This document shows positions 29,910-47,062 of a stretch of DNA of 48,492 nt, in pieces. Source of the DNA: Muribaculaceae bacterium (GTDB taxonomy: Bacteria > Bacteroidota > Bacteroidia > Bacteroidales > Muribaculaceae); contig JAFLTY010000016.1 of the NCBI GenBank assembly GCA_022509065.1, positions 1 through 48,492 of the forward strand, written 5' to 3'. The notes beneath the pieces are model-generated. The model was not told the origin of the DNA. It did no database searches and worked only from the letters and a program-made list of their open reading frames with translations. Position numbers and translations under genes: made by a program. Positions within the stretch are counted from its first letter, which is position 1. Every line of letters begins with the position of its first letter.

Positions 29910-30362
29910 ATGAAAGTAGGAAAACTTAGTAAAACAGATCGAGCGGAGAAACTTCATCCCTCGTTTAAACTTCTTTTTGACTTTGTAAAAAGAACCGATT
30001 TCGATACTCTTCCCTTTGGGAAAATCACGGTTGACGGTGATAATGTTTACATCATGAACTTGGAAATCCAAGGAAAAGATAAAAGCGAGCAACCTCTTGA
30101 AATACACAGGGAGTATATCGACGTGCATATTCTTTTGAAAGGAAAAGAGTTGATTGGTTGGAAACCATTTGACGAAATTACAACTTTCAGCCAAGAATAT
30201 GACAAGACGGCCGATTGCGCTTTAAGCGAAGAAGCTTCTCGCTTTTATGTCGAGCTTCATCCGGGTGAGTTTTGTATTGTTTATCCTGAAGATGCTCATT
30301 CTCCCGCCATAAACGATGGTCCTATCCGTAAACTGATAGGCAAAGTAAAGATTTATCAATAA
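29910..30362 (+). CDS. nanQ: YhcH/YiaL-family protein, probable sialate anomerase
   Basis: The 150-residue cupin-like protein has the family's metal-site motifs: HREYIDVHILLKG near residues 68-80 and EDAHSP near residues 128-133, with a conserved GKVKIYQ C-terminus. E. coli YhcH (NanQ) is an anomerase that supplies N-acetylneuraminate lyase with the open-chain form of its substrate. Here it lies directly upstream of a NanA-like gene, which supports that role. It is cytoplasmic (no signal peptide) and opens the operon. Some family members act on other sugars, so the symbol depends on context. Confidence 0.82.
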   Translation: MKVGKLSKTDRAEKLHPSFKLLFDFVKRTDFDTLPFGKITVDGDNVYIMNLEIQGKDKSEQPLEIHREYIDVHILLKGKELIGWKPFDEITTFSQEYDKTADCALSEEASRFYVELHPGEFCIVYPEDAHSPAINDGPIRKLIGKVKIYQ

Positions 30363-30389
30363 TTTCAAATTAAAAAAATCATAACACAC

Positions 30390-31313
30390 ATGGAAAAAAT
30401 TAAAGGTTTAATCGATGCGCCTTTTACTCCCATGCATCACAACGAGGATATTAATGTGGAGATAATTCCGGCGTATGCTGAAATGCTCGTAAAGAACGGA
30501 CTAAGAGGAGTTTTTGTAAATGGATCTTCCGGTGAAGGTTACATGCTGACCGGAGAGGAACGCAAGAAAATAGCTGAGGCATGGGTAAAAGTAGCCCCGA
30601 AAGATTTTAAGGTTATTGTGCATGTCGGCAGTTGTTGTTTGAGGGAAAGCGAAGAATTGGCAAGACATGCTCAGGAAATTGGTGCTTGGGGAATAGGATC
30701 AATGGCACCTCCATTCCCCAAAATAGGGAGAATCGAAGATTTGGTTAAATACTGCGAGAGAATAGCAAACGCGGCCCCGAATCTTCCTTTCTATTATTAC
30801 CATATCCCTGCTTTTAACGGAGCGTATTTCTCCATGCTTGAATTACTTAAAGCAGTTGACGGACGTATTCCTAATTTTGCCGGTATTAAATACACCTACG
30901 AGTCATTATATGAATATCATCAGTGTCGCTTATATGACAACGGCAAATTTGACATGTTGCACGGTCAAGACGAGACAATCCTGGCGGCACTTGCTCTTGG
31001 TGGCGCGCAAGGTGGTATTGGCGGAACAACAAACTATAATGGCCGTGAATTAACCGGTATAATTGAAGCATGGAACAATGGCGACATTGACGTCGCGCGC
31101 GAAAAACAAACATTCTCGCAGGATGTCATCAATGTCATTTGCAAATATCGCGGAAACATTGTTGCCGGTAAACGTATAATGAAACTTATCGGATTAGATC
31201 TCGGTCCCAATCGAGTACCTTTCCACAATATGAGCGACGCAGAAGAAGCCGAAATGAAAGCTCAACTTGAAAAAATTGGATTCTTTTCTCGTTGTAACAA
31301 ACTTGAAATATGA
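30390..31313 (+). CDS. nanA: N-acetylneuraminate lyase
   Basis: The enzyme cleaves sialic acid to ManNAc and pyruvate through a Schiff base, in the cytoplasm. The 307-residue TIM barrel has GSSGEG (45-50), Tyr137 in YYYHIP and Lys167 in FAGIKYT, placed as in E. coli NanA (Tyr137, Lys165). It belongs to the DHDPS superfamily, but the neighbouring NanQ-like and AGE-family genes make the sialate lyase call much stronger than dihydrodipicolinate synthase. The 3' end overlaps the next gene by four bases (ATGA), so translation is coupled. Confidence 0.9.
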   Translation: MEKIKGLIDAPFTPMHHNEDINVEIIPAYAEMLVKNGLRGVFVNGSSGEGYMLTGEERKKIAEAWVKVAPKDFKVIVHVGSCCLRESEELARHAQEIGAWGIGSMAPPFPKIGRIEDLVKYCERIANAAPNLPFYYYHIPAFNGAYFSMLELLKAVDGRIPNFAGIKYTYESLYEYHQCRLYDNGKFDMLHGQDETILAALALGGAQGGIGGTTNYNGRELTGIIEAWNNGDIDVAREKQTFSQDVINVICKYRGNIVAGKRIMKLIGLDLGPNRVPFHNMSDAEEAEMKAQLEKIGFFSRCNKLEI

Positions 31314-32485
31314 TCGATACGGCTTTTTTATCGAGCTGTTCGAAGACCTATATGGAAGGGTTGATGAACAGCATAATGCCATTTTGGATGCAGCACGGAC
31401 TAGACAAGATAAACGGAGGTGTTTATACTTGTCTAGACCGCGACGGTTCTATAATGGACACCACAAAATCGGTGTGGTTTCAGGGACGCTTTGGATATAT
31501 AGCTGCTTTGGCCTATAATAACATTGAAAATAATCCCGAATGGCTTGCCGCTTCAAAAAGTTGCGTGGAATTTATCGAAAAATATTGTTTCGATACAGAC
31601 GGTCGCATGTATTTTGAAGTAAAAGCTGATGGCACACCATTACGTAAAAGGCGATATGTCTTTTCAGAATGTTTTGCAGCCATTGCGATGGCTGCGTACT
31701 CCACAGCTTCTAATGACCCGAGTTATGCGCAGAAAGCTTTGAAGCTTTTTAAGGATATACGAACCTTCATAAACACCCCGGGATTTCTGGAACCGAAATA
31801 CCTCCCGACGCAGCCGGCAATTGGACATTCCATAACAATGATCCTCATCAATACAGCCTCAATAATCAGACAAGTAATAAAAGACCCCGAATTGGATGAA
31901 CAGATAGAACAATCCATTCAAAATCTGAAGCTTTTCATGCATCCTGAATTTAAGGCTCTCCTCGAAATGGTTACCCCTTCGGGCGAACTGATTGACACTT
32001 GTTGTGGAAGAACCATAAATCCTGGACACTGTATTGAAACAGCATGGTTCCTGCTCGAAGAGTCAAAATACAGAGGATGGGACGCCGAACTGACGGCGAT
32101 GGCGACAACCATTCTGGATTGGTCTTGGGAATGGGGCTGGGATAAGGAGTTTGGCGGTATCATCAATTTCCGCGATTGTCGTAATTTCCCTCCTCAGGAT
32201 TATTCACAAGATATGAAATTTTGGTGGCCGCAGACCGAGGCTATTATAGCGACGCTCTATGCTTTCTTAGCCACTAAAGACGAAAAATATCTTGAATGGC
32301 ACCGGATGATTCATGAATGGACTTATGCCCACTTCCCCGACTGGGAATATGGCGAATGGTTCGGCTACTTACATAGAGACGGAACTGTAGCGCAACCTGC
32401 TAAAGGAAATTTATTTAAGGGCCCGTTCCATATCCCCAGAATGATGATCAAAAGTTGTACGCTCGCTGAAGAAATAATAACTTAA
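31310..32485 (+). CDS. nanE: AGE-family N-acylglucosamine 2-epimerase
   Basis: This enzyme interconverts ManNAc and GlcNAc without phosphorylation. The 391-residue alpha/alpha barrel carries the family motifs VWFQGRFGYIAALAY near residue 46, GHCIETAWFLLE near residue 240 and KFWWPQTEAI near residue 304. In Bacteroides fragilis an enzyme of this type works on free ManNAc after sialic acid cleavage. It starts at the ATG inside the nanA stop (ATGA overlap). The next gene, susC, is 35 bp away. It belongs to a different fold from the phosphosugar NanE of E. coli, although the same symbol is used in Bacteroides. Confidence 0.87.
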   Translation: MIDTAFLSSCSKTYMEGLMNSIMPFWMQHGLDKINGGVYTCLDRDGSIMDTTKSVWFQGRFGYIAALAYNNIENNPEWLAASKSCVEFIEKYCFDTDGRMYFEVKADGTPLRKRRYVFSECFAAIAMAAYSTASNDPSYAQKALKLFKDIRTFINTPGFLEPKYLPTQPAIGHSITMILINTASIIRQVIKDPELDEQIEQSIQNLKLFMHPEFKALLEMVTPSGELIDTCCGRTINPGHCIETAWFLLEESKYRGWDAELTAMATTILDWSWEWGWDKEFGGIINFRDCRNFPPQDYSQDMKFWWPQTEAIIATLYAFLATKDEKYLEWHRMIHEWTYAHFPDWEYGEWFGYLHRDGTVAQPAKGNLFKGPFHIPRMMIKSCTLAEEIIT

Positions 32486-32520
32486 AAATATAATTCTTTA
32501 ACTAATCAAATTAACTGACC

Positions 32521-35511
32521 ATGACAAAAAAATTCTTTATTTTTCTTTTGGCCTTTTTGTCTTGTTTGACAATGTCGGCTCAAGAGATAAAAGTCACCGG
32601 TACGGTAACTGATTCTGAAGGAGAACCACTTATAGGTGTCTCTATTGTGGATAAGAGTACCCCCGGGAAAGGTGCTATCACAGACATTGACGGTAATTAT
32701 TCTATTTCTATGCCAACCAATGGAAAGCTTACTTTCGGTATGGTTGGCTACGTTACAGAAACCATTTCCATTGATGGCCGTAGCGAGATAAACGTTGTAA
32801 TGAAAGAAGACACCAACATTCTTGACGAACTGGTAGTCGTTGGTTACGGAACGCAAAACCGCTCCAAGATGTCTTCCTCGGTTGCCACAGTGTCAGCTAA
32901 AGATGCTATAAAACAACAATCATCCAACGTCGCTTCCTCGCTGCAAGGACGCGCAGCCGGTGTCGATGTCGTACAACAAGGCGGTATTGCCGGAGCAGAT
33001 GTAAATATAGTCGTACGTGGTGCAGCCTCGCTGACAGCTACCGACCCTCTTTATATCATAGACGGTGTATTTGCAAATAGCGGTTTGTCAACCCTTAACC
33101 CTTCGGACATTGAAACCATTCAAGTCTTAAAAGACGGCGCTGCCGCCGCTATCTACGGTTCACGTGCCGCTAACGGCGTTGTTATCATTACGACTAAGAA
33201 CGGTCAAAAAGGCTCGGTAAAGGTGAATGCCAATTTCGGTTTCAGCGTACAAACGCTCGCTCATACCCCCAAATTCCTTAACGCATCCCAATGGCGTGAG
33301 TTCGCCAATATGGTAAGTGACAATAGCGGTCTGGCTCGCGCCCCCGAAAATGTAAATCCCACCGATCCCTCAATCGATACAGACTGGGTTGATGTTTGGA
33401 CTCGTAATGCTCCCATCTATACAGCAGACGCACAGATTTCAGGAGGTAACGACTACGGAACATACTCTTTCTCGCTGGGATATCTCAATCAAGAAGGTGT
33501 TACCTTGAAATCTGAATATGAAAAATACAGTGCCCGTACGAACTCGAACTGGCAGTTCGGACGCTTCTTTGTTTCGGAAAACGCACAGATTGTATGGCGT
33601 CATCGCACTCCCACCTCGACCTTCAACATTGGCATGCCGACACTTCCTGTCACCGACCAGTATGGCCGTTATGCCTCGTGGGGTTCGCAATACTATATAG
33701 AAGCTGAAGACGCACGACGCAATAATCCCTTCGGAGGGTTATACGCAACCGACACTTATACAAATTACTTTGATGTAATGGGCGGTTTCAGCGCAGGTGT
33801 CGAGATAATCAAAGGTCTTAAATTTACAACATCGTTCAGCGGCAACTATACGGCATCGCATGGTTATACCCACACTCCTATATATTATACAATGTGGGAT
33901 GAAAACGGGACTCCCGATAGCGACTATGGCAATCCTAAAAACTCGTTGAGCGAAAGCCGTGGACAGACATCAAACTATACGTGGGATAATGTATTTAACT
34001 TTGACCGTGACTTTGGTAAACATTCGCTTTCTGTTACTTTGGGACAGAGTTGGATGCGCGAGTTCTACCGTGGCATGAGCTACGAGACAATAGACGACCT
34101 GGGTGCCTCCAATATTGTGGGTGTAACAAACGTGGACGCGAAGGTATCCTCTAACGAGAAAAATGCTGCTCTGCTTTCGTTCTTTGGTCGTGCCAACTAT
34201 GACTTCGACGGAAGATATCTTCTGTCGGCAAGTCTCCGTCGTGACGAATCCTCGAAGTTCCATAAAAACCATCGCGTAGGTTATTTCCCCGCCGTATCGG
34301 CCGGTTGGAACATGCACAACGAGAAATGGCTACAAGGTACAACTGTTTCGCTCCTTAAAATCACTGCCTCTTACGGCGAATTGGGAGCAAACTTCCTCAA
34401 CCCTTACAACTTCGACAATATTGCTTTCGGTCCTATCGTATATACCGTAGGTGGAATACGTTATGTTGACGGCCGCGCCGCTTATCTTAAAACAACAAAC
34501 CTTAAATGGGAAACATCGAAAACAGCAGACGTAGGGTTGGAATTAGGTTTGTTTAATAACGAAGTTACTTTCCATGTCAACTACTTCTATAAGAAGAATG
34601 TCGACCTTTTGGCAACAATTGACCTTAACCTCTCTTCCGGTCAGATTTTTGAAGTCAACACCTCTAACGAAACACCATACGTTAATACTGCCTCTGTACA
34701 GAACAAAGGTTGGGAATTCATGGTGAATTGGCACCGTAACTTCACACGTGATTTCCGTATTAATGCCACAGCAAACCTTTCAACTTTGAGCAATAAGGTT
34801 CTTGCACTTGGTGACAATGTTCAACCCATTACCTCAGGTACATTCTCGTCTAAATTCTCGGATGCGGCCACGATTACTCGTCCGGGCGATCCTATCGGCT
34901 CATTCTATGGCTATAAAATTGACGGATTCGATGCCGACGGTAACTTTATTTTCCACGATGAAAATGGTGACGGTATAGTGACCGCCGACGATAAAGTGAT
35001 ATTGGGTAGCTCGATACCTAAAATCAGCTATGGTCTCAACCTGGACTTTATTTATAAAGATTTCGACCTCTCATTGTTCTTCAACGGTGTAGGCGGAAAT
35101 AAGATATTCAATGCACAGAAATATCAATATTATTTTAACTATGCGAATAACATGGTTGTTGATGTGTTGAATTCTTGGACACCCGACAATAAGAATACCT
35201 ACGTGCCTGTTGCTAAGGTTACCAATGCCGATGGCGGTAACTCTCTCCCCAGCGAATTTTATGTTGAAGATGGTTCATATTTCCGTCTGAAAAACGTTCA
35301 GTTAGGTTATACCCTTCCTGAAAGACTTTCAAAAAAGGCATATATGAGCAACCTTCGTTTCTACTTCTCGGTTCAGAATGTCTTTACTTGCACAAAGTAT
35401 TCAGGATTTGACCCAGAAGTTAGCTCGAATACATTGTTCGCTCGTGGCGTTGACCAGAATTCTTATCCCAACGCACGGACATATACTATCGGTTTTAATC
35501 TAACATTCTAA
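32521..35511 (+). CDS. susC: SusC-family TonB-dependent outer-membrane transporter
   Basis: This is the outer-membrane channel of a glycan importer. The 996 residues start with a signal peptide (to about residue 20). A carboxypeptidase-regulatory-like domain (about 24-100), the TonB-box region LDELVVVGYGTQ (about 101-112), the plug (PLYIIDGVF, then DGAAAAIYGSRAANGVVIITTK) and a long beta-barrel ending in an aromatic (IGFNLTF) follow. There is no anti-sigma STN domain, so it is not tied to an ECF sigma switch. It is followed by its SusD partner. Substrate is inferred from the neighbouring sialic-acid genes, since the symbol only names the family. Confidence 0.95.
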   Translation: MTKKFFIFLLAFLSCLTMSAQEIKVTGTVTDSEGEPLIGVSIVDKSTPGKGAITDIDGNYSISMPTNGKLTFGMVGYVTETISIDGRSEINVVMKEDTNILDELVVVGYGTQNRSKMSSSVATVSAKDAIKQQSSNVASSLQGRAAGVDVVQQGGIAGADVNIVVRGAASLTATDPLYIIDGVFANSGLSTLNPSDIETIQVLKDGAAAAIYGSRAANGVVIITTKNGQKGSVKVNANFGFSVQTLAHTPKFLNASQWREFANMVSDNSGLARAPENVNPTDPSIDTDWVDVWTRNAPIYTADAQISGGNDYGTYSFSLGYLNQEGVTLKSEYEKYSARTNSNWQFGRFFVSENAQIVWRHRTPTSTFNIGMPTLPVTDQYGRYASWGSQYYIEAEDARRNNPFGGLYATDTYTNYFDVMGGFSAGVEIIKGLKFTTSFSGNYTASHGYTHTPIYYTMWDENGTPDSDYGNPKNSLSESRGQTSNYTWDNVFNFDRDFGKHSLSVTLGQSWMREFYRGMSYETIDDLGASNIVGVTNVDAKVSSNEKNAALLSFFGRANYDFDGRYLLSASLRRDESSKFHKNHRVGYFPAVSAGWNMHNEKWLQGTTVSLLKITASYGELGANFLNPYNFDNIAFGPIVYTVGGIRYVDGRAAYLKTTNLKWETSKTADVGLELGLFNNEVTFHVNYFYKKNVDLLATIDLNLSSGQIFEVNTSNETPYVNTASVQNKGWEFMVNWHRNFTRDFRINATANLSTLSNKVLALGDNVQPITSGTFSSKFSDAATITRPGDPIGSFYGYKIDGFDADGNFIFHDENGDGIVTADDKVILGSSIPKISYGLNLDFIYKDFDLSLFFNGVGGNKIFNAQKYQYYFNYANNMVVDVLNSWTPDNKNTYVPVAKVTNADGGNSLPSEFYVEDGSYFRLKNVQLGYTLPERLSKKAYMSNLRFYFSVQNVFTCTKYSGFDPEVSSNTLFARGVDQNSYPNARTYTIGFNLTF

Positions 35512-35522: not shown

Positions 35523-37220
35523 ATGAAATACTTAAATAAAATATTTACGATCGGTGTTGCTGCGCTTCTTCTTACTTCGTGTAATGATGTTTTCGATGAT
35601 CTTGCAGTGAATCCGCAGCAGCCCAGTATGGACTCATACTTCACCACACCCGAAGCTGTAAACGAAGCTGTCATGGTTTGTTACGGTTATGTCCAGACAC
35701 AACGTAGCTTTGGAGCCTCGGCATCAAAAACAATGATTATCCGTTCGGACGAGGCTTCCTCAAACTCCGATTACGGTCGCCCGGGTATGTATGGTTCGGG
35801 ACTTAACTCAAGTTATTATACAATAATGCAGCCTTTTGGCTTGATTTATTCAACGGCTTCACAGGCTACATACGTGATAGAGAATATCGATAAGGTAGAG
35901 TTTTACGACCAGACCCAAAAGAACGCTTATCTTGGTGAAGCGTATTTTTGGAGAGCTTTCGCTCATTTCTATCTGTTGACCAATTATCGTAAAGTCGCTC
36001 TAATCAAACACGCGCCTAAGGGCATGGAGGATTATGTGCGCGATTTGAACACTCCCGACGAAGTCTGGGATTTTATCGCGGAAGATTTGCAATATGCTAA
36101 AGAATACCTTCCCAAAAAAGGATATTGGAAAGGTCCCCAACTCGGTCGTGTGACTGCAGCTTCTGCAGCTGCGTTACGTGGTAAAGCTTTTCTGTATCGT
36201 AGCGGTATCGAGCCCATATATGGCACATCAACCAAAACTTACTATGACGAAGCCGCTACCGAATTTGATGAAATCATCAAAGGTACCTACGGCAGCTATA
36301 ACCTTGTCAACTATGAATACAACTTTGATGTAGCTCACGAAAACAACGACGAAAGCATTTTAGAACTCCAGTTCTTAGGTGATGTTATCAATAACACCTT
36401 CAACCCGGGTCAGTCGACTTCAGGCTTGGCTTTCGACCCTCGTGGCCTCATGTTGCCCGGTGCGGGATCAGGATACGAAGGCGTTGTCCACGAATGGTTA
36501 TATGACGCTTTTGTCAACAGCATTGACAAGGACGGTTATACGGATATGCGTATGTTCCATACCATGTTCTTCAACGACCTTGCTCCTGAAATCAAAGCGC
36601 GTCCGGGTCAGCGTGTAACCGGCCCCGGCGGTTATCACTTCGAAGACCTGTATCCTCAGGGTAATTTCTCGACAGCCGCTAATACACGCACTCACCCTTA
36701 TAAAGCTGGATTCCTTAAAGGAATGGATCTGTCAATGCCTATGCGTAACAACGACCCCACTTCATTGGCAGGTGTCGGCGCAGGTGTGCAGGAATACATC
36801 TATAACCAGCCTCGCGCGCATGGCGTGAACTGGAGATGGATCCGTTATGCCGATGTACTTCTTATGTATGCCGAAGCTGTGATCAGCGGAGGTAAAGCAG
36901 GTTCGACTTCGGCTGTTGAAGCATTCAACAAAGTGAGAGAACGTGCCAACATGGCTCCTGTGAGCGGCCTGACAATGGAAACGATTAAGAACGAGCGTAT
37001 TCTTGAATTCGCACTCGAAGGACATCGTTTCTACGACCTGCTCCGTTGGGGTGAACTGGCAGATCGTTTCCATGAATTGGAACGGAAGGATCCCAACTTC
37101 AAAAAACTGATTTCGGATACCGATTATGAAGGCTTTACGGCAAACAAACACGAATGGTTGCCTATCCCTATCTCGGAGATTGAATCTAATCCTAAAGCAC
37201 AACAGAACCCCGGTTATTAA
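35523..37220 (+). CDS. susD: SusD-family outer-membrane glycan-binding lipoprotein
   Basis: SusD-type proteins cap the SusC channel and bind glycans at the surface. The 565-residue lipoprotein has a lipobox ending with Cys20 (LLTSC). It has the tetratricopeptide-like helical N-terminal half with the AYFWRAFAHFYLLTNYRKVAL segment, and a C-terminal domain with RWIRYADVLLMYAEAV and the ending NPGY typical of the family. It begins 11 bp after susC and ends 2 bp before the first propeller gene. Confidence 0.95.
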   Translation: MKYLNKIFTIGVAALLLTSCNDVFDDLAVNPQQPSMDSYFTTPEAVNEAVMVCYGYVQTQRSFGASASKTMIIRSDEASSNSDYGRPGMYGSGLNSSYYTIMQPFGLIYSTASQATYVIENIDKVEFYDQTQKNAYLGEAYFWRAFAHFYLLTNYRKVALIKHAPKGMEDYVRDLNTPDEVWDFIAEDLQYAKEYLPKKGYWKGPQLGRVTAASAAALRGKAFLYRSGIEPIYGTSTKTYYDEAATEFDEIIKGTYGSYNLVNYEYNFDVAHENNDESILELQFLGDVINNTFNPGQSTSGLAFDPRGLMLPGAGSGYEGVVHEWLYDAFVNSIDKDGYTDMRMFHTMFFNDLAPEIKARPGQRVTGPGGYHFEDLYPQGNFSTAANTRTHPYKAGFLKGMDLSMPMRNNDPTSLAGVGAGVQEYIYNQPRAHGVNWRWIRYADVLLMYAEAVISGGKAGSTSAVEAFNKVRERANMAPVSGLTMETIKNERILEFALEGHRFYDLLRWGELADRFHELERKDPNFKKLISDTDYEGFTANKHEWLPIPISEIESNPKAQQNPGY

Positions 37221-37222
37221 TT

Positions 37223-38926
37223 ATGACACTCCATAAAATAACAAAGTTCTTCATCGCAGGTATAGCCATAGCGGCAACTTTTGCCGCTAATGGCTATGCA
37301 TCTGGTGAAACGCTCTATAATGGCATACAGTTGCCCGAGCAATGGCCTCCAAGGTACGCTGAACCTGATACAGCATGCGAAATGCCCGTCCCTTATCTTG
37401 TCAATAAGCCCTCTGTTATTCCTATTAATGTAGGAAGACAGCTCTTTGTTGATAATTTCTTAATTGCATCTTCCGATATGACTCCGGTCTACCACACTCC
37501 TGACTTCTATGTGGGCAATCCTGTATTGGAGCCAACCGAAGAATGGGAGAATACCATCGAAGGCGCGCCTTACGCTGCTCCTTTTAGCGATGGTATATGG
37601 TATGACGATAACGACGGAAAGTACAAAATGTGGTATCTCGCAGGTGCAGGAACCATCCATAAGCAAGACAAACAGACGTTTTACACAGGTTACGCTGAAT
37701 CAAACGATGGCATACACTGGACAAAACCGAAACTTGACATAATGGATGGAACATGTATTGTAGATACGGCTAATCGTGACGCAGCCACAATATGGCTTGA
37801 CAAAAAAGAAATCGATCCGTCGAGACGATTCAAGATGTTTAACGTGGAACGTCGTCCCACCGACCGCCGATGGCAGTTCATCCTTAAATATTCGCCCGAT
37901 GGCATACATTGGAGTGAAGGTGTAGCACAATCGGGAGACTTGTATGACCGCTCTTCTGTTTTCTATAACCCGTTCCGCGATGTTTGGTGCTTGTCAATGA
38001 GATACAGCACAAACGTTTCATCTCGTTCACGCAGCTATCTCGAAGCTCATGACCCTGAAACAGCCGTTTCAATGGCACATCGTGTGCGTAAAGGTGTCCC
38101 CGATAAAAATGTCGTGTATTGGTTTACGCCGGACGACAAGGAACCAAGACATCCGAACTTCCCTGAAGTAAATCCGGGCATTTATAACTTCGACTGCATT
38201 CCTTATGAAAGCATTATGTTAGGTCAATATGCTATATGGCAAGGACCCGAAAATAATATATGCGCGGATTTAGGAATACAGAAGCGTAACGAAATCGGAT
38301 TGGGTTATTCGCGTGACGGTTTCCATTTTTCGCGTCCTTCTCATAAACCTTTTATGGCCAATGATACTACCGAGGGCGCATGGAACTGGGGCAATATGCA
38401 GTCTATAGGTGGTGTTCCTCTAATCGTTGGCGATTCACTGTATTTTTATTGTAGCGGTCGCCGATTGAACGACATTATGTGGGACAGTTATACATCTACC
38501 GGATTGGCCAAATTGCGCCGTGACGGTTTCGTGTCGATGAATGCCGGTAAATCGGAAGGGACTCTTCTAACCGAACCAGTAATCTTTGACGGTGAATACC
38601 TTTTTGTCAATGCTGATGTAAAGGGTAAAAAATCAGAGTTGTTAGTCGAAGTTACCGATCTTGAAGGGAATCCCATACCAGGATTTGAGAAAAAAGACTG
38701 CATCGGGATGAAACGTGCTGATTCCACAAAGAATAGAATTCAGTGGAAGAATAACGATACACTTGCTTCATTAAAAGGCCAACCCGTTAGGTTTAAATTC
38801 TACGTCACCGACGGAGATTTATACTCATTCTGGGTATCGCCATGGGAAACAGGCGAGAGTCGTGGCTATACTGCAGGCGGTGGCCCGGGTCTTTCCAAAA
38901 CCGGCCAAGATATTCCGGCCATTTAA
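37223..38926 (+). CDS. secreted beta-propeller glycosidase-like protein, paralogue 1
   Basis: The 567-residue protein has a signal peptide (cleavage near residue 27). RQLFVDNFLI at 72-81, APFSDGIWYDD at 119-129 and KMWY near 135 belong to a large, poorly characterized Bacteroidetes/Planctomycetes group with a five-bladed propeller fold like GH32/GH43. Repeated SxDGxxW motifs (SNDGIHW 160-166, SPDGIHW, SRDGFHF) resemble Asp-box-type turns of propellers. A beta-sandwich tail ends with GYTAGGGPGL, shared by all three paralogues. Enzymatic activity is not shown. Location between susD and a lipoprotein paralogue, in a locus with NanA and the epimerase, suggests it acts on a sialylated glycan. Likely periplasmic. 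Confidence 0.82.
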   Translation: MTLHKITKFFIAGIAIAATFAANGYASGETLYNGIQLPEQWPPRYAEPDTACEMPVPYLVNKPSVIPINVGRQLFVDNFLIASSDMTPVYHTPDFYVGNPVLEPTEEWENTIEGAPYAAPFSDGIWYDDNDGKYKMWYLAGAGTIHKQDKQTFYTGYAESNDGIHWTKPKLDIMDGTCIVDTANRDAATIWLDKKEIDPSRRFKMFNVERRPTDRRWQFILKYSPDGIHWSEGVAQSGDLYDRSSVFYNPFRDVWCLSMRYSTNVSSRSRSYLEAHDPETAVSMAHRVRKGVPDKNVVYWFTPDDKEPRHPNFPEVNPGIYNFDCIPYESIMLGQYAIWQGPENNICADLGIQKRNEIGLGYSRDGFHFSRPSHKPFMANDTTEGAWNWGNMQSIGGVPLIVGDSLYFYCSGRRLNDIMWDSYTSTGLAKLRRDGFVSMNAGKSEGTLLTEPVIFDGEYLFVNADVKGKKSELLVEVTDLEGNPIPGFEKKDCIGMKRADSTKNRIQWKNNDTLASLKGQPVRFKFYVTDGDLYSFWVSPWETGESRGYTAGGGPGLSKTGQDIPAI

Positions 38927-38938: not shown

Positions 38939-40690
38939 ATGCGATTAAAGAATATATTAGGTATTGCGTTGAGTGTTGGTTGCCTTCTTGGCTCATGCAG
39001 CAAGGAGAATGAACCTACGTCTCCTCCCAACAATAGCGAAGGAACTAACGAACAACCGACCACACCGGCCACACCGGCCACACCCGCTTACCCTGAAATT
39101 CCGAATCCCGATCCCACTTCCAGGTTACTCTACAATGGGATTTCTTTACCGACGGTTTGGCCTCCAACGACATCGACGGCTTATGTAACCTCCGGTATGA
39201 CTCCCAATTATCTATTTAACAAACCTTCAGTTATAGATATTACGATAGGGAGGCAATTATTTGTTGATGATTTTCTTATTTCGCAAACATCGCTTAAACG
39301 CAACTGGCATCGCGCTGAGTATCATCCTTCTTCGCCGGTTCTTGTCCCTGAAAAGGAATGGGAACTCAACGGAAAAGGAGGCGGTTCGGCTGCTCCGTTC
39401 AGCGATGGTGTTTGGTATGACGAAACTGACAACAAATTCAAGATGTGGTATATGGCTGCCGGAGGCTCTTACGGCGGAGGTAATATGGTGACTTGTTATG
39501 CAGAGTCTGCAGACGGTATTAACTGGACACGACCTTCATTGAATGTCGTTGCCGGAACCAATATTGTGCATTCCGGAAAGAATAGAGACTCCAATACCGT
39601 GTGGCTTGATAAGAACGCTGCTAATGAATATGAGCGATACAAAATGTTCCAATCAAGCGATGGTGCAGGCAACTGGAAATATCATTATTACACATCTTCT
39701 GATGGTAAAGCCTGGCGCGAAGTGAATGAATCAAAATCGATTGCAGACCGTTCGACTGTGTTTAAAAATCCATTCCGTGGAGTTTGGGTATGGTCTTTAC
39801 GACATAACGTGCGGGTAAATTCAGCGACCCTGATACGTGGTAGAGATTACATGGAGAACGCCGATGCGACTGCCGGCAATAAGTTGGCTGAAGCTGATTT
39901 GCAGAGGTTTTGGTTCGGAGCATGGCCTTCGGAACCCACGCATCCTGTTTATACCGATGTGCAACCGGCTATTTATAACTTGGACGCTATAGGTTATGAA
40001 AGTGTTATGCTTGGAATATTCTCTGTATGGTCGGGACCTGAGAATGACGTATGTTCTGCCGATGGTGTAATCAAACGCAATCAATTGCTTCTTGGCTATA
40101 GCCGAGACGGATGGAACTGGTATAGAGAAGATTTCGTGCCCTTCTGTCCCGTAAGCGATGATAAGTCAGCTTGGAATAACGGCAATATTCAATCGGCTGT
40201 GGGCTCGCCCATCATAGTTGGAGACAAATTGTATTTCTATATGAGTGGTAGGCATTTTAGCTCTACCGGTCAGGAGATTGTTTCTACAGGACTTGCAACA
40301 CTTCGACGCGATGGGTTTGCTTCAATGTCCGGGACAGGCGAGATTCTTACAGAACCACTCAAATTCTCCGGTGAGTATTTCTTCGTGAATGCAGCTATAA
40401 AGGGCTCATTAACCGTAGAAATCCAGGATGAAAAAGGAACCCCGATTACTGGGTTTACGAAAAGTGACTGTGTGAGCGTCACCGGTGACGGAACTTGTAA
40501 GCAAGTTAAGTGGAAAAACAATGAGACCCTCTCGTCTCTTAAAGGTAGAACTATAAGAGTCAAATTCTTTGTAAATGATGGCGACCTTTATGCGTTCTGG
40601 ATAACACCGTTTGAAAAGGGCAACAGTTTCGGATATACTGCCGGAGGTGGCCCCGGATTATACAAACTTGGAATTGATGCTCCGTATTAA
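38939..40690 (+). CDS. beta-propeller glycosidase-like lipoprotein, paralogue 2
   Basis: The 583-residue protein is a lipoprotein (Cys20, then SKENE) with a flexible linker containing TPATPATPA (about 42-50), consistent with anchoring at the cell surface. It has QLFVDDFLI at 106-114, the APFSDGVWYDE and KMWY motifs, SADGINW and SRDGWNW repeats, and the shared GYTAGGGPGL ending. It resembles paralogue 1 over its whole length. As the anchored member it may make the first cut outside the cell, followed by paralogue 1 in the periplasm. That division of labour is an inference. Confidence 0.82.
   Translation: MRLKNILGIALSVGCLLGSCSKENEPTSPPNNSEGTNEQPTTPATPATPAYPEIPNPDPTSRLLYNGISLPTVWPPTTSTAYVTSGMTPNYLFNKPSVIDITIGRQLFVDDFLISQTSLKRNWHRAEYHPSSPVLVPEKEWELNGKGGGSAAPFSDGVWYDETDNKFKMWYMAAGGSYGGGNMVTCYAESADGINWTRPSLNVVAGTNIVHSGKNRDSNTVWLDKNAANEYERYKMFQSSDGAGNWKYHYYTSSDGKAWREVNESKSIADRSTVFKNPFRGVWVWSLRHNVRVNSATLIRGRDYMENADATAGNKLAEADLQRFWFGAWPSEPTHPVYTDVQPAIYNLDAIGYESVMLGIFSVWSGPENDVCSADGVIKRNQLLLGYSRDGWNWYREDFVPFCPVSDDKSAWNNGNIQSAVGSPIIVGDKLYFYMSGRHFSSTGQEIVSTGLATLRRDGFASMSGTGEILTEPLKFSGEYFFVNAAIKGSLTVEIQDEKGTPITGFTKSDCVSVTGDGTCKQVKWKNNETLSSLKGRTIRVKFFVNDGDLYAFWITPFEKGNSFGYTAGGGPGLYKLGIDAPY
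39061..39090 (+). repeat. short tandem repeat in the linker of propeller paralogue 2
   Basis: Three copies of a nine-base ACCGGCCAC-like unit encode the TPATPATPA part of the linker after the lipid anchor. Such a repeat may vary in copy number by slippage, changing only linker length. Confidence 0.55.
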
Positions 40691-40732
40691 TTTCAAATTT
40701 ACCAATTGTTTAATCAATCAATTAACAATATT

Positions 40733-42565
40733 ATGTTTAAGAAATTTTATAAAGGCCTATTGCTTGGAGCAATTACCATTTTTGCGGTTTCGTGCTCCGA
40801 AGACCATGAGTTCTATAACACCGCCGCTAAGGCCGGTATAGAACAAATGGGAGGAGAATATGAAGTTGGAGTTCCAATAACATTTAAAGACACAAGCGTG
40901 CCTACCGAAGGGACACGCATTGTGAGTTATTTCTGGGAATTCGGTGACGAGGATAATTCCACATCTACCGAAATGACACCAACCTTTACTTATAAAAAAG
41001 ACGGTACTTACACGGTAAAATTGACTGTGGAAGACTCAAATGAGCTAAAGGCATCCACCACAACCAAAGTTGTCATCGTCAATCCGACAAAAGCAGACTT
41101 CGAACTTGATCAGGAGGAATATCTGCTTGGCGACGTGGTTAATTTTAAAGACATCTCCACAACAAAAGGTTCAACAACAATCGTTGGTTGGTTCTGGGAA
41201 TTTGCAGATGAAAACCGTTCTACATCAACAGAGCAGAATCCCTCGTTCAAGTATCAGACCGCAGGTTCTTATCCCGTGAAACTGACTGTGACAGACTCTT
41301 ATGGTCTGACAGCTTCCGTGACAAAGAGTGTCAACATTCTCGATCCTACCATGATTATTGCCACACAATGGACAATGTCACTTGGTGGGGCTGTTAAAGC
41401 GGGTTCGTCGCCAGCGATGTCTCCCGATGGAAGCACCCTCTACATGATGCGTAGTAAAGCTGATACGGATCTTGCAGCTTTATATGCCTATGATTCCTCT
41501 AGCGGACAGGTTAAGTGGACATTAGACTTGAGCGAAGCTATGCAGGGATGTTCGCCTACGGCAACTGCTACTGATGTATTCAGTTCTCCCTCAGTAGGAG
41601 CGGACGGAACAATCTATATGATTGTACGCGACCTTCAGTCTACAAGCGCCGATCGCGTAGGCCCGGTTACCATTGCCGTTAATCCTAACGGTTCGGTTAA
41701 GTGGGCTAAAGCTAATGGTGCCGGCGGTACTAACTTATACGCTATTACTCCTGCAATCGACACTAACGGCAATATACTTGTTGCTACTCGTGGTAACGAA
41801 ATGTGGAAATATACACCTGACGGAGCTTGTACGATATTCAGCACCGAAGGAATCGGAGCTACCGCCGGTATATCTGTCTCAAAATCAGGCGTAGCTTACG
41901 CGGCAGCCAACGGTAAGAACGGTTTCTTCGCTACAGATATTAACTCAGGTGCACAACTTTGGAAGTATACGACAAATCTTGGTGGCGCAGCCGATGCGTT
42001 TACAGGTGCTTTGCGTTCGGCTCAGGCTTCTATCGGAGCTGACGGTACTATATACTTCGTAACTGACGCAGATTCAGGAGGAGGTGAAGTTATTGCATTA
42101 AACGCCAACGGCTCAACCAGTTGGATTTACAAGACTGCCGGGGCTATTCCCGATGGCGGTGTGGCAATCGGTGAAGATGGCACACTCTATGCAAATGGTG
42201 GCACATCGGCAGCCGAAGGGCTGATAGCTCTTGACAAGAACGGTAACCTGTTATGGAATTTCGCTACCAAAGCTAACGTACAGACTACTCCCACAATTGA
42301 CGACCGCGGGTACATCCATATTATAGACGCTCAAGCCAACTATTATGTGGTGAAACAAGACGGGACATTGTTCGCGGAAGATAACCTCGGGCAATCATGT
42401 ACTTCTACTCCCGTAATGGATGCTACCGGTCGTTTGTATGTTGCGGTAATTAAAGATGGTGTTGCGACAATGGTCTGCGTCTCCTCGAAAGCATCATCGT
42501 ACAACACAGTATCGGCTTGGCCGATGCGTGGTCAGAACCCGAGTCGCACAAGTTTACAGAAATAA
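40733..42565 (+). CDS. lipoprotein with two PKD domains and a PQQ-like beta-propeller
   Basis: The 610-residue lipoprotein has a lipobox ending at Cys21 followed by SED, an acidic surface-export-like signal. Two PKD domains follow (about residues 42-117 and 120-203, each with the FWEFGDE or FWEFADE motif and a TYTVKLTV or SYPVKLTV strand). The rest is a PQQ-type eight-bladed propeller pattern (ALYAYDSSSGQVKW, then repeated AVNPNGSVKW and ALNANGSTSW units). It sits where a surface glycan-binding protein is expected in a polysaccharide-utilization locus. Binding, rather than catalysis, is the likely role. The ATG at 40733 gives a proper lipobox; a TTG at 40706 is also in frame. Confidence 0.85.
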   Translation: MFKKFYKGLLLGAITIFAVSCSEDHEFYNTAAKAGIEQMGGEYEVGVPITFKDTSVPTEGTRIVSYFWEFGDEDNSTSTEMTPTFTYKKDGTYTVKLTVEDSNELKASTTTKVVIVNPTKADFELDQEEYLLGDVVNFKDISTTKGSTTIVGWFWEFADENRSTSTEQNPSFKYQTAGSYPVKLTVTDSYGLTASVTKSVNILDPTMIIATQWTMSLGGAVKAGSSPAMSPDGSTLYMMRSKADTDLAALYAYDSSSGQVKWTLDLSEAMQGCSPTATATDVFSSPSVGADGTIYMIVRDLQSTSADRVGPVTIAVNPNGSVKWAKANGAGGTNLYAITPAIDTNGNILVATRGNEMWKYTPDGACTIFSTEGIGATAGISVSKSGVAYAAANGKNGFFATDINSGAQLWKYTTNLGGAADAFTGALRSAQASIGADGTIYFVTDADSGGGEVIALNANGSTSWIYKTAGAIPDGGVAIGEDGTLYANGGTSAAEGLIALDKNGNLLWNFATKANVQTTPTIDDRGYIHIIDAQANYYVVKQDGTLFAEDNLGQSCTSTPVMDATGRLYVAVIKDGVATMVCVSSKASSYNTVSAWPMRGQNPSRTSLQK

Positions 42566-42581
42566 TTTGCACTGAACATCT

Positions 42582-43847
42582 ATGAATTCCATACGTTTAA
42601 AAAAATGGTATCCATGGATGGTCGTAGCACTCCTTTGGGTGGTAGCTCTGCTGAACTATATGGATCGGCAGATGCTATCCACCATGAGGGATGCGATGGC
42701 TATCGACATCACAGACCTTGAAAGCAAGGTGTTGTTTGGAAAGGTTATGGCCGCATTCATGTGGATTTATGGGTTTATGAGCCCCGTCTCAGGTATTGTG
42801 GCCGACCGTGTCAACAGAAAATGGTTAATAGTCCTTTCATTGGGTGTATGGTCTACAGTAACCCTTTTGATGGGCTACGCAACCTCGTATGACCAGGTCT
42901 ATTGGTTAAGAGCTCTGATGGGTGTTTCAGAGGCGTTATATATTCCGGCCGCTCTGTCTCTTATTGCCGATTACTTTACCGGCAAACAATTAAGTTTGGC
43001 AATCGGTATTCATATGACCGGTCTATATATGGGTCAGGCAATAGGTGGTTTTGGCGCTTTCGTAGCCGAATCAATCTCTTGGCAATCGACATTCCATTGG
43101 TTCGGAATAGTAGGTATCGTATATGCTTTTGTACTTGTGGCTTTCCTTTATGAATCACGCCGCGAGACTGCCGCTCAGAAAGAAGAAGAGAAGAAACAAA
43201 CCTTGGGAGAAACATTGCGGAGTAATTTTGCCGCAATCCGGTCATCTTTAGGCATCTTACTAACAAATATCGCCTTTTGGACTATTATTTTCTTCTTCGC
43301 TTCATGTTCGGTTCCCGGTTGGGCTACGAAAAACTGGCTTCCGACGCTATTCTCCGACAGCTTAGATGTCCCAATGTCAGTTGCAGGCCCTATTGCAACG
43401 ATAACTATCGCGTTTGCTTCGTTCATTGGAGTTATGATAGGTGGTCCTATGGCTGATAAATGGTCCAAGAAAAATCTTAAAGGACGTATATACACCAGCG
43501 CTATCGGTTTAACTCTCATGATACCGTCATTGGTGCTTATGGGCTTCGGAACAACATTTGTTGCGGCTGTAGGCGCCGGCATATTGTTCGGATTAGGATA
43601 TGGATTGTTCGATGCAAACAATATGCCCATACTTTGTCAATTTGTAAGCGACCGCTCGCGTGCAACTGCATACGGAATGATGAATATGTCCGGATTATTC
43701 ATTGGTGCTTTGGCCACTAACGTTTTAGGCTCTCTTGCTGAAAAAGACATGATGGGTCTCGGATTCGCATGTATGGCAGGAGCATTATGCCTGGCACTTA
43801 TACTTCAATTGGCGGTTCTCAAACCCAAAACACTCAATAAGGTCTAA
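42582..43847 (+). CDS. MFS transporter, probable sialic-acid importer
   Basis: The 421-residue protein has 12 predicted membrane segments and an ALLNYMDRQMLSTM N-terminal motif typical of the anion:cation-symporter (ACS) branch of MFS, which includes NanT-like and hexuronate carriers. A cytoplasmic loop at about residues 195-215 (ETAAQKEEEKKQTLGETLRSN) separates the two bundles. In B. fragilis an MFS permease (NanT) imports free sialic acid. Here the gene follows the lipoprotein by 16 bp and precedes a terminator-like hairpin. Substrate is inferred from the nanQ-nanA-epimerase cluster. Confidence 0.87.
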   Translation: MNSIRLKKWYPWMVVALLWVVALLNYMDRQMLSTMRDAMAIDITDLESKVLFGKVMAAFMWIYGFMSPVSGIVADRVNRKWLIVLSLGVWSTVTLLMGYATSYDQVYWLRALMGVSEALYIPAALSLIADYFTGKQLSLAIGIHMTGLYMGQAIGGFGAFVAESISWQSTFHWFGIVGIVYAFVLVAFLYESRRETAAQKEEEKKQTLGETLRSNFAAIRSSLGILLTNIAFWTIIFFFASCSVPGWATKNWLPTLFSDSLDVPMSVAGPIATITIAFASFIGVMIGGPMADKWSKKNLKGRIYTSAIGLTLMIPSLVLMGFGTTFVAAVGAGILFGLGYGLFDANNMPILCQFVSDRSRATAYGMMNMSGLFIGALATNVLGSLAEKDMMGLGFACMAGALCLALILQLAVLKPKTLNKV

Positions 43848-43859
43848 TCTTTTGATTGG

Positions 43860-43925
43860 AGGTTGTCGGTTGTGTTCTGAAATGATATTTCAATCAAACA
43901 CACCGACAACCTTACTCTTTTATTT
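43860..43925 (+). terminator. terminator-like hairpin after the MFS gene
   Basis: AGGTTGTCGGT (43860-43870) and ACCGACAACCT (43902-43912) form a perfect 11-bp stem, extended inward by an imperfect TGTGTT...AAACACA pairing, with TACTCTTTTATTT following. It lies between the MFS and permease genes. It may be a partial stop, since the permease-propeller-flavoprotein genes begin only 35 bp later with no clear promoter. Confidence 0.75.
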
Positions 43926-43947
43926 CCCAATTGACTGCTAATAAAAA

Positions 43948-45522
43948 ATGGCACTTATTATCTCTTTATTACCTTTAGCCCTTCTTTTCATTTTAATGCT
44001 TGGCTTTAAGATGACCGGATATAAAAGTGCTTTCTTTACTCTGATAATTACAATTGCTCTTGTGTTTATAGGAGTGCCGTATATCGATATTTTACCTGAG
44101 CGTTTTGCAGAAACTTCTTTAAGTCAATTGGTGTTATGGAGTTCTATCGAGGGTGTCTTGAAAGCTCTTTTCCCGATTTTTCTTATAATCCTGATGGCAA
44201 TATTCAGCTATAATATAGTAGTTGAATCGGGACAAATTGAGATAATTAAGAAACAATTAACATCTCTTACCGACGATAAAGGGATTCTTGTGCTATTAAT
44301 GGTATGGGGATTCGGTGGTCTTTTGGAGGGTATGGCCGGTTTCGGGACAGCAGTAGCTATTCCAGCAGCTTTGCTAATAGGACTTGGGTTTAGGTCAGTA
44401 TTCTCTGCATTTGTTGCCTTGCTGGGAAATACTGTGGCAACAGGTTTTGCAGCTCTCGGAGTACCGATTATTACTCTTTGTAACGAAGCTGTAGTTGGGG
44501 GTGGGGCACCCACTTCAATGATTAATGAAATTTCTGCATTTACGATAATTCAATTATCTCCGTTATTTTATTTGATTCCTTTCCTCATTCTGACTTTTAC
44601 AGACAAGAAAGCATGGGTTAAAAACATATTCCTGACATTGTGGGTAGGGACAGTCTCTTTATTTGTTCAATTCATTAGCGTCATTTATATCGGAGTTGAA
44701 GCTCCTGCAATCTTAGGTTCGATAGCTGCTATTCTTGCGTTGATTGTCGCCGCTAAATTTATAAAGAAAGAAAAGTCTCAAATATTGGGACATTCTTTCG
44801 TCGAATGTCTAAGGTCATGGAGTGTATATATAGTTATTCTCATTCTTGTATTGCTTTCCGGACCTCTTTGTGCGCCGATAAATAATTTTCTAAAATCACA
44901 TCTTATTTCGACGGTTCCTCTTCCCGTACTTGAGAATGTTTTTAAGTTCGGATGGATTTCAAATGCTGCTTTTATCCTTCTTTTAGGTAGTATCATAGGA
45001 GGATTAATTCAAGGATTGTCCTTAAAGAAATTAATAAAAATACTCTGTAAAACTCTGCTTAATCTTAGAAAAACGGCATTGACGATATGCTCATTAATTG
45101 TTCTCGCTTCAATAATGAATTATACCGGAATGATTAATGCGATAGCCAATAGTCTTGCAGGGATAACGGGCTCGTTTTACCCCTTGCTGGCGCCGATGGT
45201 CGGTGCGGTGGGAACTTTTGTTACCGGAAGTGACACATCGTCTAACATCTTATTCGCTAAACTTCAGATAATGATGGCAGATAAATTAGGGATGACAGGT
45301 AATCTTGATTTGGTGGGAATCACCGGCAGTGAGTCAAATTGGTTGCTGTCCGCAAATACTACCGGAGCAACCGGCGGCAAAATGATTTCACCGCAAAGTA
45401 TTGCAGTTGCCACTGCTGCATGCTCGATCAACGGAGAGGATAGCAATATCTTAAAATCTGTATTACCTTTTGCTCTCATCTATGTGATAATAGGTGGTAT
45501 ATTAGTCTATTTTCTTTCATAA
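43948..45522 (+). CDS. LctP-family permease (lactate/glycolate type)
   Basis: The 524-residue inner-membrane protein has about 13 hydrophobic segments. GFGGLLEGMAGFGTAVAIPAALLI is the hallmark of the L-lactate permease family (LctP, GlcA). A second half-repeat has GAVGTFVTGSDTSSNILFAKLQ. E. coli GlcA, in the same family, carries glycolate. In a sialic-acid locus, deacylation of N-glycolyl sugars would release glycolate, so a glycolate role is attractive but unproven. Lactate from O-lactylated sialic acids is another possibility. DNA here is more AT-rich than in the susCD genes. It is followed 4 bp later by a third propeller gene. Confidence 0.87.
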   Translation: MALIISLLPLALLFILMLGFKMTGYKSAFFTLIITIALVFIGVPYIDILPERFAETSLSQLVLWSSIEGVLKALFPIFLIILMAIFSYNIVVESGQIEIIKKQLTSLTDDKGILVLLMVWGFGGLLEGMAGFGTAVAIPAALLIGLGFRSVFSAFVALLGNTVATGFAALGVPIITLCNEAVVGGGAPTSMINEISAFTIIQLSPLFYLIPFLILTFTDKKAWVKNIFLTLWVGTVSLFVQFISVIYIGVEAPAILGSIAAILALIVAAKFIKKEKSQILGHSFVECLRSWSVYIVILILVLLSGPLCAPINNFLKSHLISTVPLPVLENVFKFGWISNAAFILLLGSIIGGLIQGLSLKKLIKILCKTLLNLRKTALTICSLIVLASIMNYTGMINAIANSLAGITGSFYPLLAPMVGAVGTFVTGSDTSSNILFAKLQIMMADKLGMTGNLDLVGITGSESNWLLSANTTGATGGKMISPQSIAVATAACSINGEDSNILKSVLPFALIYVIIGGILVYFLS

Positions 45523-45526
45523 GCTT

Positions 45527-47062
45527 ATGAAAATTAAAACATCACATATCGGAATTCTACTCGTTGGATCTGTCTTCTTTACGTATCCTATGCTGTTTAG
45601 TCAAGGGAGGAATTTAATAATTCCCTCTAATATTGACTCGATATATAATGCGCGGATATGTTTTAATTATCCCATAGAGTATGATGCCAATCCAATAATA
45701 ATAGCCGATAAGCCTTGGGAATTTAACGCAAACGGAGATCCTTACGCAGCCCCATTTAGTGGTGGTGTCTGGTACGATGAAGAAGTGTCGCTTTTCAAAA
45801 TGTGGTATTCGGCAGGCGGACATAAAAAGCATGGGTTAATAACATGTTATGCAGAATCTAAAGATGGTATAGATTGGCATAAACCATCATTAGATGTTAT
45901 TGAGGGGACAAATATTGTTGATACTTTAGAGCATGATTGTGTGACGGTTCTTTTAGATAAATACGAATGTGATAGAAGCAAGAGATACAAGATGTTTTGC
46001 GTTCAATTCGACACTCCGAGCGCAGTTTCGATGGTGTTGAAATATTCTAAAGACGGAATACATTGGGGTGACCATGTCGCGCTTTCAGGTGATTTGTATG
46101 ACAGATGCTCTGCATATTACGACCCTTTTAGAGATACATATGTTCTCTCACTAAAAACGAAAGACGCAGACAATCGCAGAGCAAGAAATTATTTAGCGAA
46201 TAAGGATCCGGAATTGGCGGTAAGTTTAGCACACAGAGTATATGGGAATAATCATGATAAATTTATAAAGTTTTGGTTTTCTGCCCAAGATGATGATCCC
46301 AGACATCCTGACTTTCCGGAAATAGCCCCTGCTATTTATAATCATGATGCCATAGCATACGAAAATATTTTATTAGGCCAATTTGTAGTCTGGCAAGGGC
46401 CTGAGAATAAAGATTGTGTTAAGCTCAATGTGCAAAAAAGAAACGAAATACTTATCGGTTTTTCAAAGGACGGATTTCACTGGGAAAGACCGGATAAAAC
46501 GCCGTTTATTGGTGTAAGTAGTGATTCGTTGGCCTGGAATGCGGGAAACATACAGTCATCTATGGGTTCTCCATTAATAGTCGGTGATTCTCTATATTTT
46601 TATTATAGCGGAAGATATAATAGCAGACCGGTACATCCGTCTAACTTTGCAACGGGATTGGCAAAAATGCGTCGAGACGGATTTTCAAGAGCTCAAACAA
46701 AAGGGAAAGGATTTATTATAACCAAGCCTACAACTATTTGTGGCGACATTCTCTTTATAAATGCTGATGTCTCTAACCCCGACGCGTGTATAGAAATTGA
46801 GATATTAAATGACAATTACGAGAAAATAGGTTCTTTCCAGACTGTTTCTGACATTAATTCAACAAAATATATGTGTGTCCCGGAAAGCCAAGAAATGTTG
46901 AATAAAATAAAAGGGAAACAAGTATGTCTTAAATTCAATATGACTGATGCTGCTCTTTATTCGTATTGGTTTAGCAACTCTCCAAATGGCGAAAGCGGTG
47001 GTTATACTGCCGGTGGAGGGCCAGGCCTTTCATCATCCGGGAAAGATATTGCAATGCCTTAA
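45527..47062 (+). CDS. secreted beta-propeller glycosidase-like protein, paralogue 3 (lacks the QLFVDDFLI segment)
   Basis: The 511-residue protein has a signal peptide (to about residue 25). It shares APFSGGVWYDEE, KMWY, SKDGIDW, SKDGIHW, SKDGFHW and GYTAGGGPGL with paralogues 1 and 2, and the DLYDRCSAYYDPF region with them too. It lacks the N-terminal RQLFVDDFLI-containing segment and is shorter at the front, so it may have a changed or lost function. DNA is AT-rich. It lies 4 bp after the LctP-like gene and 9 bp before the flavoprotein. Confidence 0.82.
   Translation: MKIKTSHIGILLVGSVFFTYPMLFSQGRNLIIPSNIDSIYNARICFNYPIEYDANPIIIADKPWEFNANGDPYAAPFSGGVWYDEEVSLFKMWYSAGGHKKHGLITCYAESKDGIDWHKPSLDVIEGTNIVDTLEHDCVTVLLDKYECDRSKRYKMFCVQFDTPSAVSMVLKYSKDGIHWGDHVALSGDLYDRCSAYYDPFRDTYVLSLKTKDADNRRARNYLANKDPELAVSLAHRVYGNNHDKFIKFWFSAQDDDPRHPDFPEIAPAIYNHDAIAYENILLGQFVVWQGPENKDCVKLNVQKRNEILIGFSKDGFHWERPDKTPFIGVSSDSLAWNAGNIQSSMGSPLIVGDSLYFYYSGRYNSRPVHPSNFATGLAKMRRDGFSRAQTKGKGFIITKPTTICGDILFINADVSNPDACIEIEILNDNYEKIGSFQTVSDINSTKYMCVPESQEMLNKIKGKQVCLKFNMTDAALYSYWFSNSPNGESGGYTAGGGPGLSSSGKDIAMP

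Follow-up and report, generated by a model that had tools for sequence, protein, structure and literature searches.

Three propeller proteins encoded in a sialic acid utilization locus of a Muribaculaceae bacterium, a candidate undescribed glycosidase-type family

Among the closest described systems for the use of sialic acid is the nanLE/nanT/nanOU/nanH system of Tannerella forsythia and Bacteroides fragilis. In the excerpted account, this system comprises an N-acetylneuraminate lyase (NAL), an epimerase, a major facilitator superfamily (MFS) importer and a SusCD-type outer-membrane pair; the genes that sialic acid induces there include the sialidase gene nanH, and NanU binds sialic acid in its free form but does not bind sialyllactose (PMC3969230). 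Many predicted gut sialic acid users have no recognized sialidase; excerpts of a second source indicate that one has been identified in about 40% of the strains predicted to utilize N-acetylneuraminic acid (Neu5Ac) (PMC10017367). The locus described here is carried by a Muribaculaceae bacterium (GenBank assembly GCA_022509065.1, contig JAFLTY010000016.1). The window, that is, the whole stretch of 48,492 nucleotides that was analyzed, is the entire contig C8 of a 2.28 Mb genome that is 95.47% complete. As in the T. forsythia and B. fragilis system, the locus contains a lyase, an epimerase, an MFS importer and a SusCD-type pair. In contrast to that system, no sialidase gene was found in the window operon, and three propeller proteins, termed prop1, prop2 and prop3, are present. 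The SusD-like protein also differs from NanU, with 5lx8 and other SusD homologues being the closest (E 6e-33) and NanU (4l7t) a far weaker match (E 3.8e-6).

A role of the propellers in the use of sialic acid is well supported because they are co-located with NAL, N-acylglucosamine 2-epimerase (AGE), NanQ, NanM or NanE in differing arrangements and in two phyla. From the gene content, the protein family, the fold model of prop1 and this recurrent neighborhood, we infer, with a probability of roughly one half, that the propellers form a glycosidase-type family that has not been described, with sialosides as its substrates, and whose most likely reaction is cleavage of the sialic acid ketoside, with release of sialic acid.

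The neighborhood of relatives was surveyed in 72 loci, a selected set taken from the best 80 of 216 confirmed stretches in one contig scan. NAL (at least 40% identical) and/or AGE (at least 34%) were present in the fetched stretch of 20 of these loci (L004-L009, L011-L013, L015-L020, L026-L028, L032, and L049), and 31 of the 46 Bacteroidota-side loci possess a SusC at least 44% identical to that of the window. The placement of the nan genes varies: they precede SusCD in the window and in L004, follow the propellers in L006 and L008, and stand at the far end in L017 and L018, and L028 has no SusCD in its stretch. Among the 46 propeller genomes, 32 encode a NAL at least 65% identical to that of the window and 7 more encode one that is 35-47% identical; a total of 44 would include DapA-like relatives. 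In a sample of 197 genomes of the family Muribaculaceae, the propeller (E<=1e-60) was found in 4, NAL (E<=1e-40) in 31 and a match to a two-row profile of glycoside hydrolase (GH) family 33 (E<=1e-20) in 28. Three of the four propeller genomes also had NAL (Fisher p 0.013). Close relatives of the propellers are rare, occurring in those 4 of 197 genomes and in 3 of 247 genomes sampled across the order (G000, G180, and G102 at E<1e-200), although 26 of the latter sample match at E<=0.001.

Two Firmicute loci, L036 from Bacillus sp. FJAT-50079 and L065 from a metagenome-assembled genome (MAG) of Candidatus Caccovicinus, encode a NAL-like protein matched best by the N-acetylneuraminate lyase model of NCBIfam (E 6e-71 and 2e-69, respectively, both under the cut-off), a NanE that exceeds its NCBIfam cut-off in each locus, and a ROK kinase, the specificity of which is not settled. 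Genes read as ABC-transporter-like are also present. The propellers of these loci (60-62% identical) show no signal peptide by eye, and they nest inside the Bacteroidota prop1 clade together with L025 (set of three, SH-aLRT 99). A propeller lacking a signal peptide beside an ABC transporter could mean that free sialate is imported, and that the propellers act on it or on a derivative as a mutarotase, a lactonase or a hydratase of anhydro or dehydro forms. NanM is itself a propeller, described as six-bladed in the excerpted source (PMC10017367), and no NanM was found in the window genome. Even so, such a function appears very improbable. A NanM-family mutarotase adjoins the propeller in L017, L018, L026 and L032 (recognized by Pfam in L017 and L032, and by BLAST to L017 in the other two), so a mutarotase role is disfavored; moreover, the window already has a NanQ-like gene, and a five-bladed propeller joined to a sandwich is a glycosidase architecture. 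Both Firmicute clusters also contain a second propeller (L036 15213-16655; L065 9206-10645). These two proteins are 45% identical to each other and 21-25% identical to prop1, with no Pfam match. The third Firmicute-labelled locus, L033, comes from a Tepidanaerobacteraceae MAG; its contig of 3.3 kb lacks sialate genes and may be mis-binned.

The original prediction described three related propeller proteins, and the alignment agrees with it, prop2 and prop3 being 49 and 46% identical to prop1, respectively. In the tree, prop2 and prop3 form clades of their own (Table 1). The five-bladed fold guessed at that time is supported for prop1, to which the modelling was confined: its AlphaFold2 model (pLDDT 94.5, pTM 0.92) is a five-bladed propeller with a C-terminal sandwich, the blades being counted by reading the strand list. 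By fold, it comes closest to GH32, GH130, GH43 and a GalNAc deacetylase; in sequence it is distant from all of these. With Foldseek, GH32-type chains came top (E 8e-12), and GH130 gave a TMt of 0.69. In the 50 rows displayed for each fold search, GH33 and GH181 did not appear, a result with which a relation is still compatible. Sequence searches of the PDB with prop1, two alignments and one Firmicute member returned nothing better than E 0.001. The original prediction had also named membership in a characterized family with an unrelated substrate as a finding that would speak against it, and no match of prop1, prop2 or prop3 reached a Pfam or NCBIfam cut-off.

Conservation was assessed in 80 rows, of which 59 represent Bacteroidota, Firmicutes and the window and 21 come from elsewhere. 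At least 90% of these keep D186, D242, R243, R268, R270, Y321, Y328, E329, K354, N356, R371, N388, N391, Q393, and R413. All three window copies retain these residues, so none of them looks dead. Placed by strand order in the prop1 model, not by coordinates, D186, D242-R243, R268/R270, K354-N356, N388-Q393 and R413 would lie at strand ends on one face, and such an arginine-rich face would suit a carboxylate ligand. No histidine occurs among the invariant columns; H91 is the sole histidine above 90% and is absent from prop3. As weak evidence, several arginines without an invariant histidine may fit an anionic ligand better than a histidine-held metal. The same columns bear on another proposal, under which the propellers would remove acetyl groups from sialic acid or sialoglycans, as deacetylases or O-acetyl esterases comparable to a five-bladed enzyme of Flavonifractor plautii, the GalNAc deacetylase FpGalNAcDeAc (6n1a), to which the family has a weak sequence relation (E 0.005 by profile). 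In that enzyme type the metal ligands are, we take it, histidines, for which the propellers offer no invariant counterpart, and the NAL/AGE route would be ill suited to a sialic acid that has lost its N-acetyl group. Deacetylation or de-O-acetylation is an improbable function.

The operon was originally described as having no classical sialidase, and no BNR match was found among the ten window proteins scanned with Pfam (SusC and SusD lay outside the scan), nor was any GH33 found in it. A GH33 or GH156 gene just beyond the window had been named as evidence that would count against the prediction. No GH33 was found in the window genome, whose contig ends at 48492; GH156, GH177 and GH181 were not searched for there. 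Specifically, a BNR_3 search gave no match, the two-row GH33 profile gave none at E<=1e-20, and a single GH33 protein gave none in a search that held no known positive and shows little. A BNR_2 search returned two pieces of one protein on contig C23, which matches PDB sialidases only weakly (E 7e-5) and was read as part of a mannan-type cluster (L091, G000:C23:1-20000) with GH76, GH3, an aldose epimerase, a phosphomannose isomerase and a ROK protein, probably an alpha-mannan locus. The C23 protein also has an fn3-like part.

Across the 46 propeller genomes, 14 have no match to the GH33 profile, and 8 of those 14 also have no BNR_2 match. The eight are B. gallinarum DSM 18171 (L012), B. propionicigenes NSJ-90 (L025), Bacillus FJAT-50079 (L036), the L065 MAG and four other MAGs; NAL occurs in seven of them, in five at 74-82% identity and in two by best NCBIfam model under the cut-off. 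BNR_2 matches occur in the other 6 of the 14 and are strong in G249 and G274; that of G249 was inspected further. The genome of L005 (Muribaculaceae Isolate-110) has a sole BNR_2 domain (E 1.8e-81), and because this domain is fused to an alpha-L-rhamnosidase, the protein was not counted as a sialidase. In this protein (L080 34-2526), the BNR_2 domain stands behind the alpha-L-rhamnosidase (GH78-type) domain. Of the 31 NAL-positive genomes in the family sample, 21 match the GH33 profile and 10 do not, and two of these 10 have the propeller; one of the two, G381, has the same coordinates as G249 and is apparently the L005 genome.

Several observations weigh against the simple view that the propellers stand in for a missing sialidase. 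A GH33-like hit is present in 32 of the 46 propeller genomes, and a GH33 with BNR_assoc_N is the gene next to the propeller in L028 and L032. Eight of the 31 NAL-positive family genomes have neither propeller nor GH33. Ten of these 31 genomes have no GH33, so many sialate users do without it, and its absence taken alone is weak evidence. The data do not support a mutual exclusion between the propeller and GH33; the test of propeller against GH33 absence among NAL-positive family genomes gave p 0.24. In the genomes, the propellers go with sialate use rather than with a lack of GH33. Sialic genes are rare among the scanned neighbors of members from Planctomycetes, Hydrogenedentota and similar groups, so the family may have further substrates. 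These members are 41-48% identical and keep most of the conserved residues. Of the loci that lie outside Bacteroidota and Firmicutes, 24 in number, 23 had their neighbors examined: 109 proteins were listed and 70 of them scanned. This yielded BNR_2 in two and SASA in one, and no common pathway was seen among these proteins, for which the 25 commonest of 84 families were shown. A DHDPS-like neighbor in L047 was rejected as a NAL, its best NCBIfam model being DapA.

The GH33 genes beside propellers, a protein with GLAA-B (GH110-type) barrels in L028, and the presence of GH130, GH43 and GH32 among the best folds would all suit glycosidases with a different target bond in sialylated glycans, such as that of a galactoside, hexosaminide or mannoside, so that the core is exposed or processed while sialic acid comes from elsewhere. 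This is unlikely, though less so than the deacetylase and free-sialate functions. No other sugar route or sialidase was recognized in the listed open reading frames of the two Firmicute clusters, part of which were scanned, and the genomes of L036 and L065 show no BNR_2 match. In the Bacteroidota operons, no recurring second sugar route was noticed, by impression and not by count. The original idea that the propellers take the place of a sialidase can be retained as far as sialate use is concerned, given the recurrent co-location. Replacement itself is plausible but unproven, with the glycosidase-like fold and the 8 of 46 genomes having neither GH33 nor BNR_2 on one side and the frequent GH33 genes on the other.

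If the propellers do release sialic acid, a more extended proposal, which we hold tentatively and rate at somewhat below even, is that they represent a new GH family of sialidases built on a five-bladed GH32-like ketosidase architecture and used by sialic acid eaters without GH33. The family would have been transferred horizontally from Bacteroidota to Firmicutes, where it would be cytoplasmic, and triplicated in gut Bacteroidales into a set of copies, which may differ in linkage specificity. With regard to location, mechanism and order of action, we infer that the lipoprotein prop2 would trim the sialoglycan at the outer membrane, perhaps at the surface, and that SusCD would then import a sialo-oligosaccharide, from which periplasmic prop1 and prop3 would release sialic acid. 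The MFS permease would carry it inward, NanQ would open the ring, and NAL and AGE would yield pyruvate and GlcNAc. A SusD far from NanU, two apparently periplasmic copies and one lipoprotein fit, but do not show, the import of a longer saccharide followed by periplasmic cutting. If correct, a further sialidase family would alter how bacteria are divided into primary desialylators of mucin and scavengers, and would be a new tool for glycan work. The presence of members in named species (B. gallinarum, B. xylanisolvens, P. vulgatus, and Capnocytophaga) makes the proposal directly testable.

The gene run in the window (28156-47062) consists of one minus-strand ROK/helix-turn-helix (HTH) gene followed by eleven plus-strand genes, from the NanQ-like gene through prop3 (Table 1). 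The gene positions and the NanQ-, NanA- and epimerase-like, SusCD and MFS assignments given originally were borne out by Pfam and PDB matches, but calling the intracellular route complete was slightly too strong, as no GlcNAc kinase was seen within the operon. Read from sequence, the identities of NAL and AGE are solid: N-acetylneuraminate lyases top the 39 PDB sequences listed for the former, and 8bry, the best match of the latter, is an N-acylglucosamine 2-epimerase. The ROK/HTH protein is probably the regulator, a repressor, of the operon. The MFS permease weakly matches the sialate:H+ symport subfamily of NCBIfam, one among many MFS subfamilies matched. Directly after prop2 lies a protein with two PKD domains and a PQQ propeller. 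A relative of it is found in 10 of 10 loci holding all three propeller types, and it occupies the usual position of a surface glycan-binding protein, which it perhaps is. A gene of the LctP (lactate permease) family is placed between the MFS gene and prop3. The gene after prop3 (47072-48385) resembles a glutamate-synthase small subunit.

Table 1. Genes of the sialic acid locus in the window
Feature	Position	Strand	Evidence
ROK-family protein, N-terminal HTH	28156..29394	-	Pfam ROK E 1e-55, HTH_24 E 4e-6
NanQ/YhcH-like sialate anomerase	29910..30362	+	Pfam DUF386 E 1.2e-41; NCBIfam acetylneur_anom E 3.4e-24, under its cut-off
N-acetylneuraminate lyase (NAL)	30390..31313	+	Pfam DHDPS E 3.4e-47; PDB 6arh E 6e-62; NCBIfam NAL best model, under cut-off
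N-acylglucosamine 2-epimerase (AGE), ManNAc to GlcNAc	31310..32485	+	8bry E 5e-129; NCBIfam AGE E 1.2e-100, under cut-off
SusC-like TonB-dependent transporter	32521..35511	+	Sequence
SusD-like lipoprotein	35523..37220	+	Nearest solved relative 5lx8 E 6e-33
prop1, five-bladed propeller with C-terminal beta-sandwich, apparent signal peptide I, predicted periplasmic glycosidase-type enzyme	37223..38926	+	AlphaFold2 model, fold matches, no Pfam match
prop2, paralogue, apparent lipoprotein (LGSC lipobox)	38939..40690	+	Alignment; 12-row clade, SH-aLRT 100
PKD and PQQ-type propeller protein	40706..42565	+	PKD_4 E 1.4e-28, PQQ_2 E 5.5e-16
MFS permease, candidate inner-membrane sialate importer	42582..43847	+	MFS_1 E 1.2e-47
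LctP-family permease	43948..45522	+	Lactate_perm E 3.6e-99
prop3, paralogue, shorter N-terminal segment, apparent signal peptide I	45527..47062	+	Alignment; 10-row clade, SH-aLRT 100

Other genes accompany the propellers in related loci. A glycerophosphodiesterase-like protein (L022 11610-12554, L038 7754-8689, L040 3-938, and L041 10179-11138; 53-81% identical among the four) either adjoins the propeller or lies some 8 kb or less away from it. NAL and AGE were not found in these loci, and the protein may point to phosphodiester-linked or lipid-anchored sialoglycans. An amidohydrolase (Pfam Amidohydro_1) follows the PKD/PQQ or MFS gene in L004 (16617-17774), L005 (15265-16503) and L049 (15268-16488), the latter two copies being 76-82% identical to that of L004; from its sequence, it looks like a GlcNAc-6-phosphate deacetylase. 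A GDSL/SASA esterase-like protein is encoded near the propeller in L016.

The propellers were compared with known enzyme families. GH33 enzymes are six-bladed, whereas the strand list of the prop1 model gives five blades. None of the three proteins has a Pfam BNR match at E<=1, and hhalign against a two-sequence GH33 profile gave 3% probability. With respect to the GH33 pocket, which has an arginine triad with Tyr/Glu and Asp, several conserved arginines of the propellers would lie near the pocket, as placed by strand order only. GH156, which we take to be a TIM-barrel inverting exosialidase, has a different fold from the propeller of prop1. GH181 Amuc_1547, a sialidase of a gut mucus bacterium distinct from GH33 (excerpts of PMC10067855), is described as six-bladed with a carbohydrate-binding module (CBM)-like domain in the available parts of PMC12018670 and PMC10067855, again in contrast to the five blades of prop1. 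A phmmer search of the PDB with prop1 did not bring up this enzyme at E<=10. No description of the propeller family or of a sialidase of its kind was found in the open-access literature, a search that did not cover CAZy. For the GH43 family, the propellers gave no Pfam profile match. They likewise have no Pfam match to the GH130 mannoside phosphorylases and hydrolases, from which they differ by an extra C-terminal domain; NCBIfam gave a BMBP match (E 6e-5) that scored 22.5 bits, the cut-off being 450. From GH32, they differ in that there is no Pfam GH32 match and the NDPN motif is absent from the propeller alignment. Aligned by pattern, the position of what we take to be the NDPN nucleophile of GH32 appears as Phe-Ser and not Asp, while D186 and D242 would stand at the places of the presumed RDP Asp and EC Glu, respectively. 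In overall architecture, however, prop1 matches the GH32 (clan GH-J) fructosidases, in which a five-bladed propeller is likewise followed by a C-terminal sandwich, albeit with a high root-mean-square deviation over both domains, and both groups of enzymes would act on ketosides.

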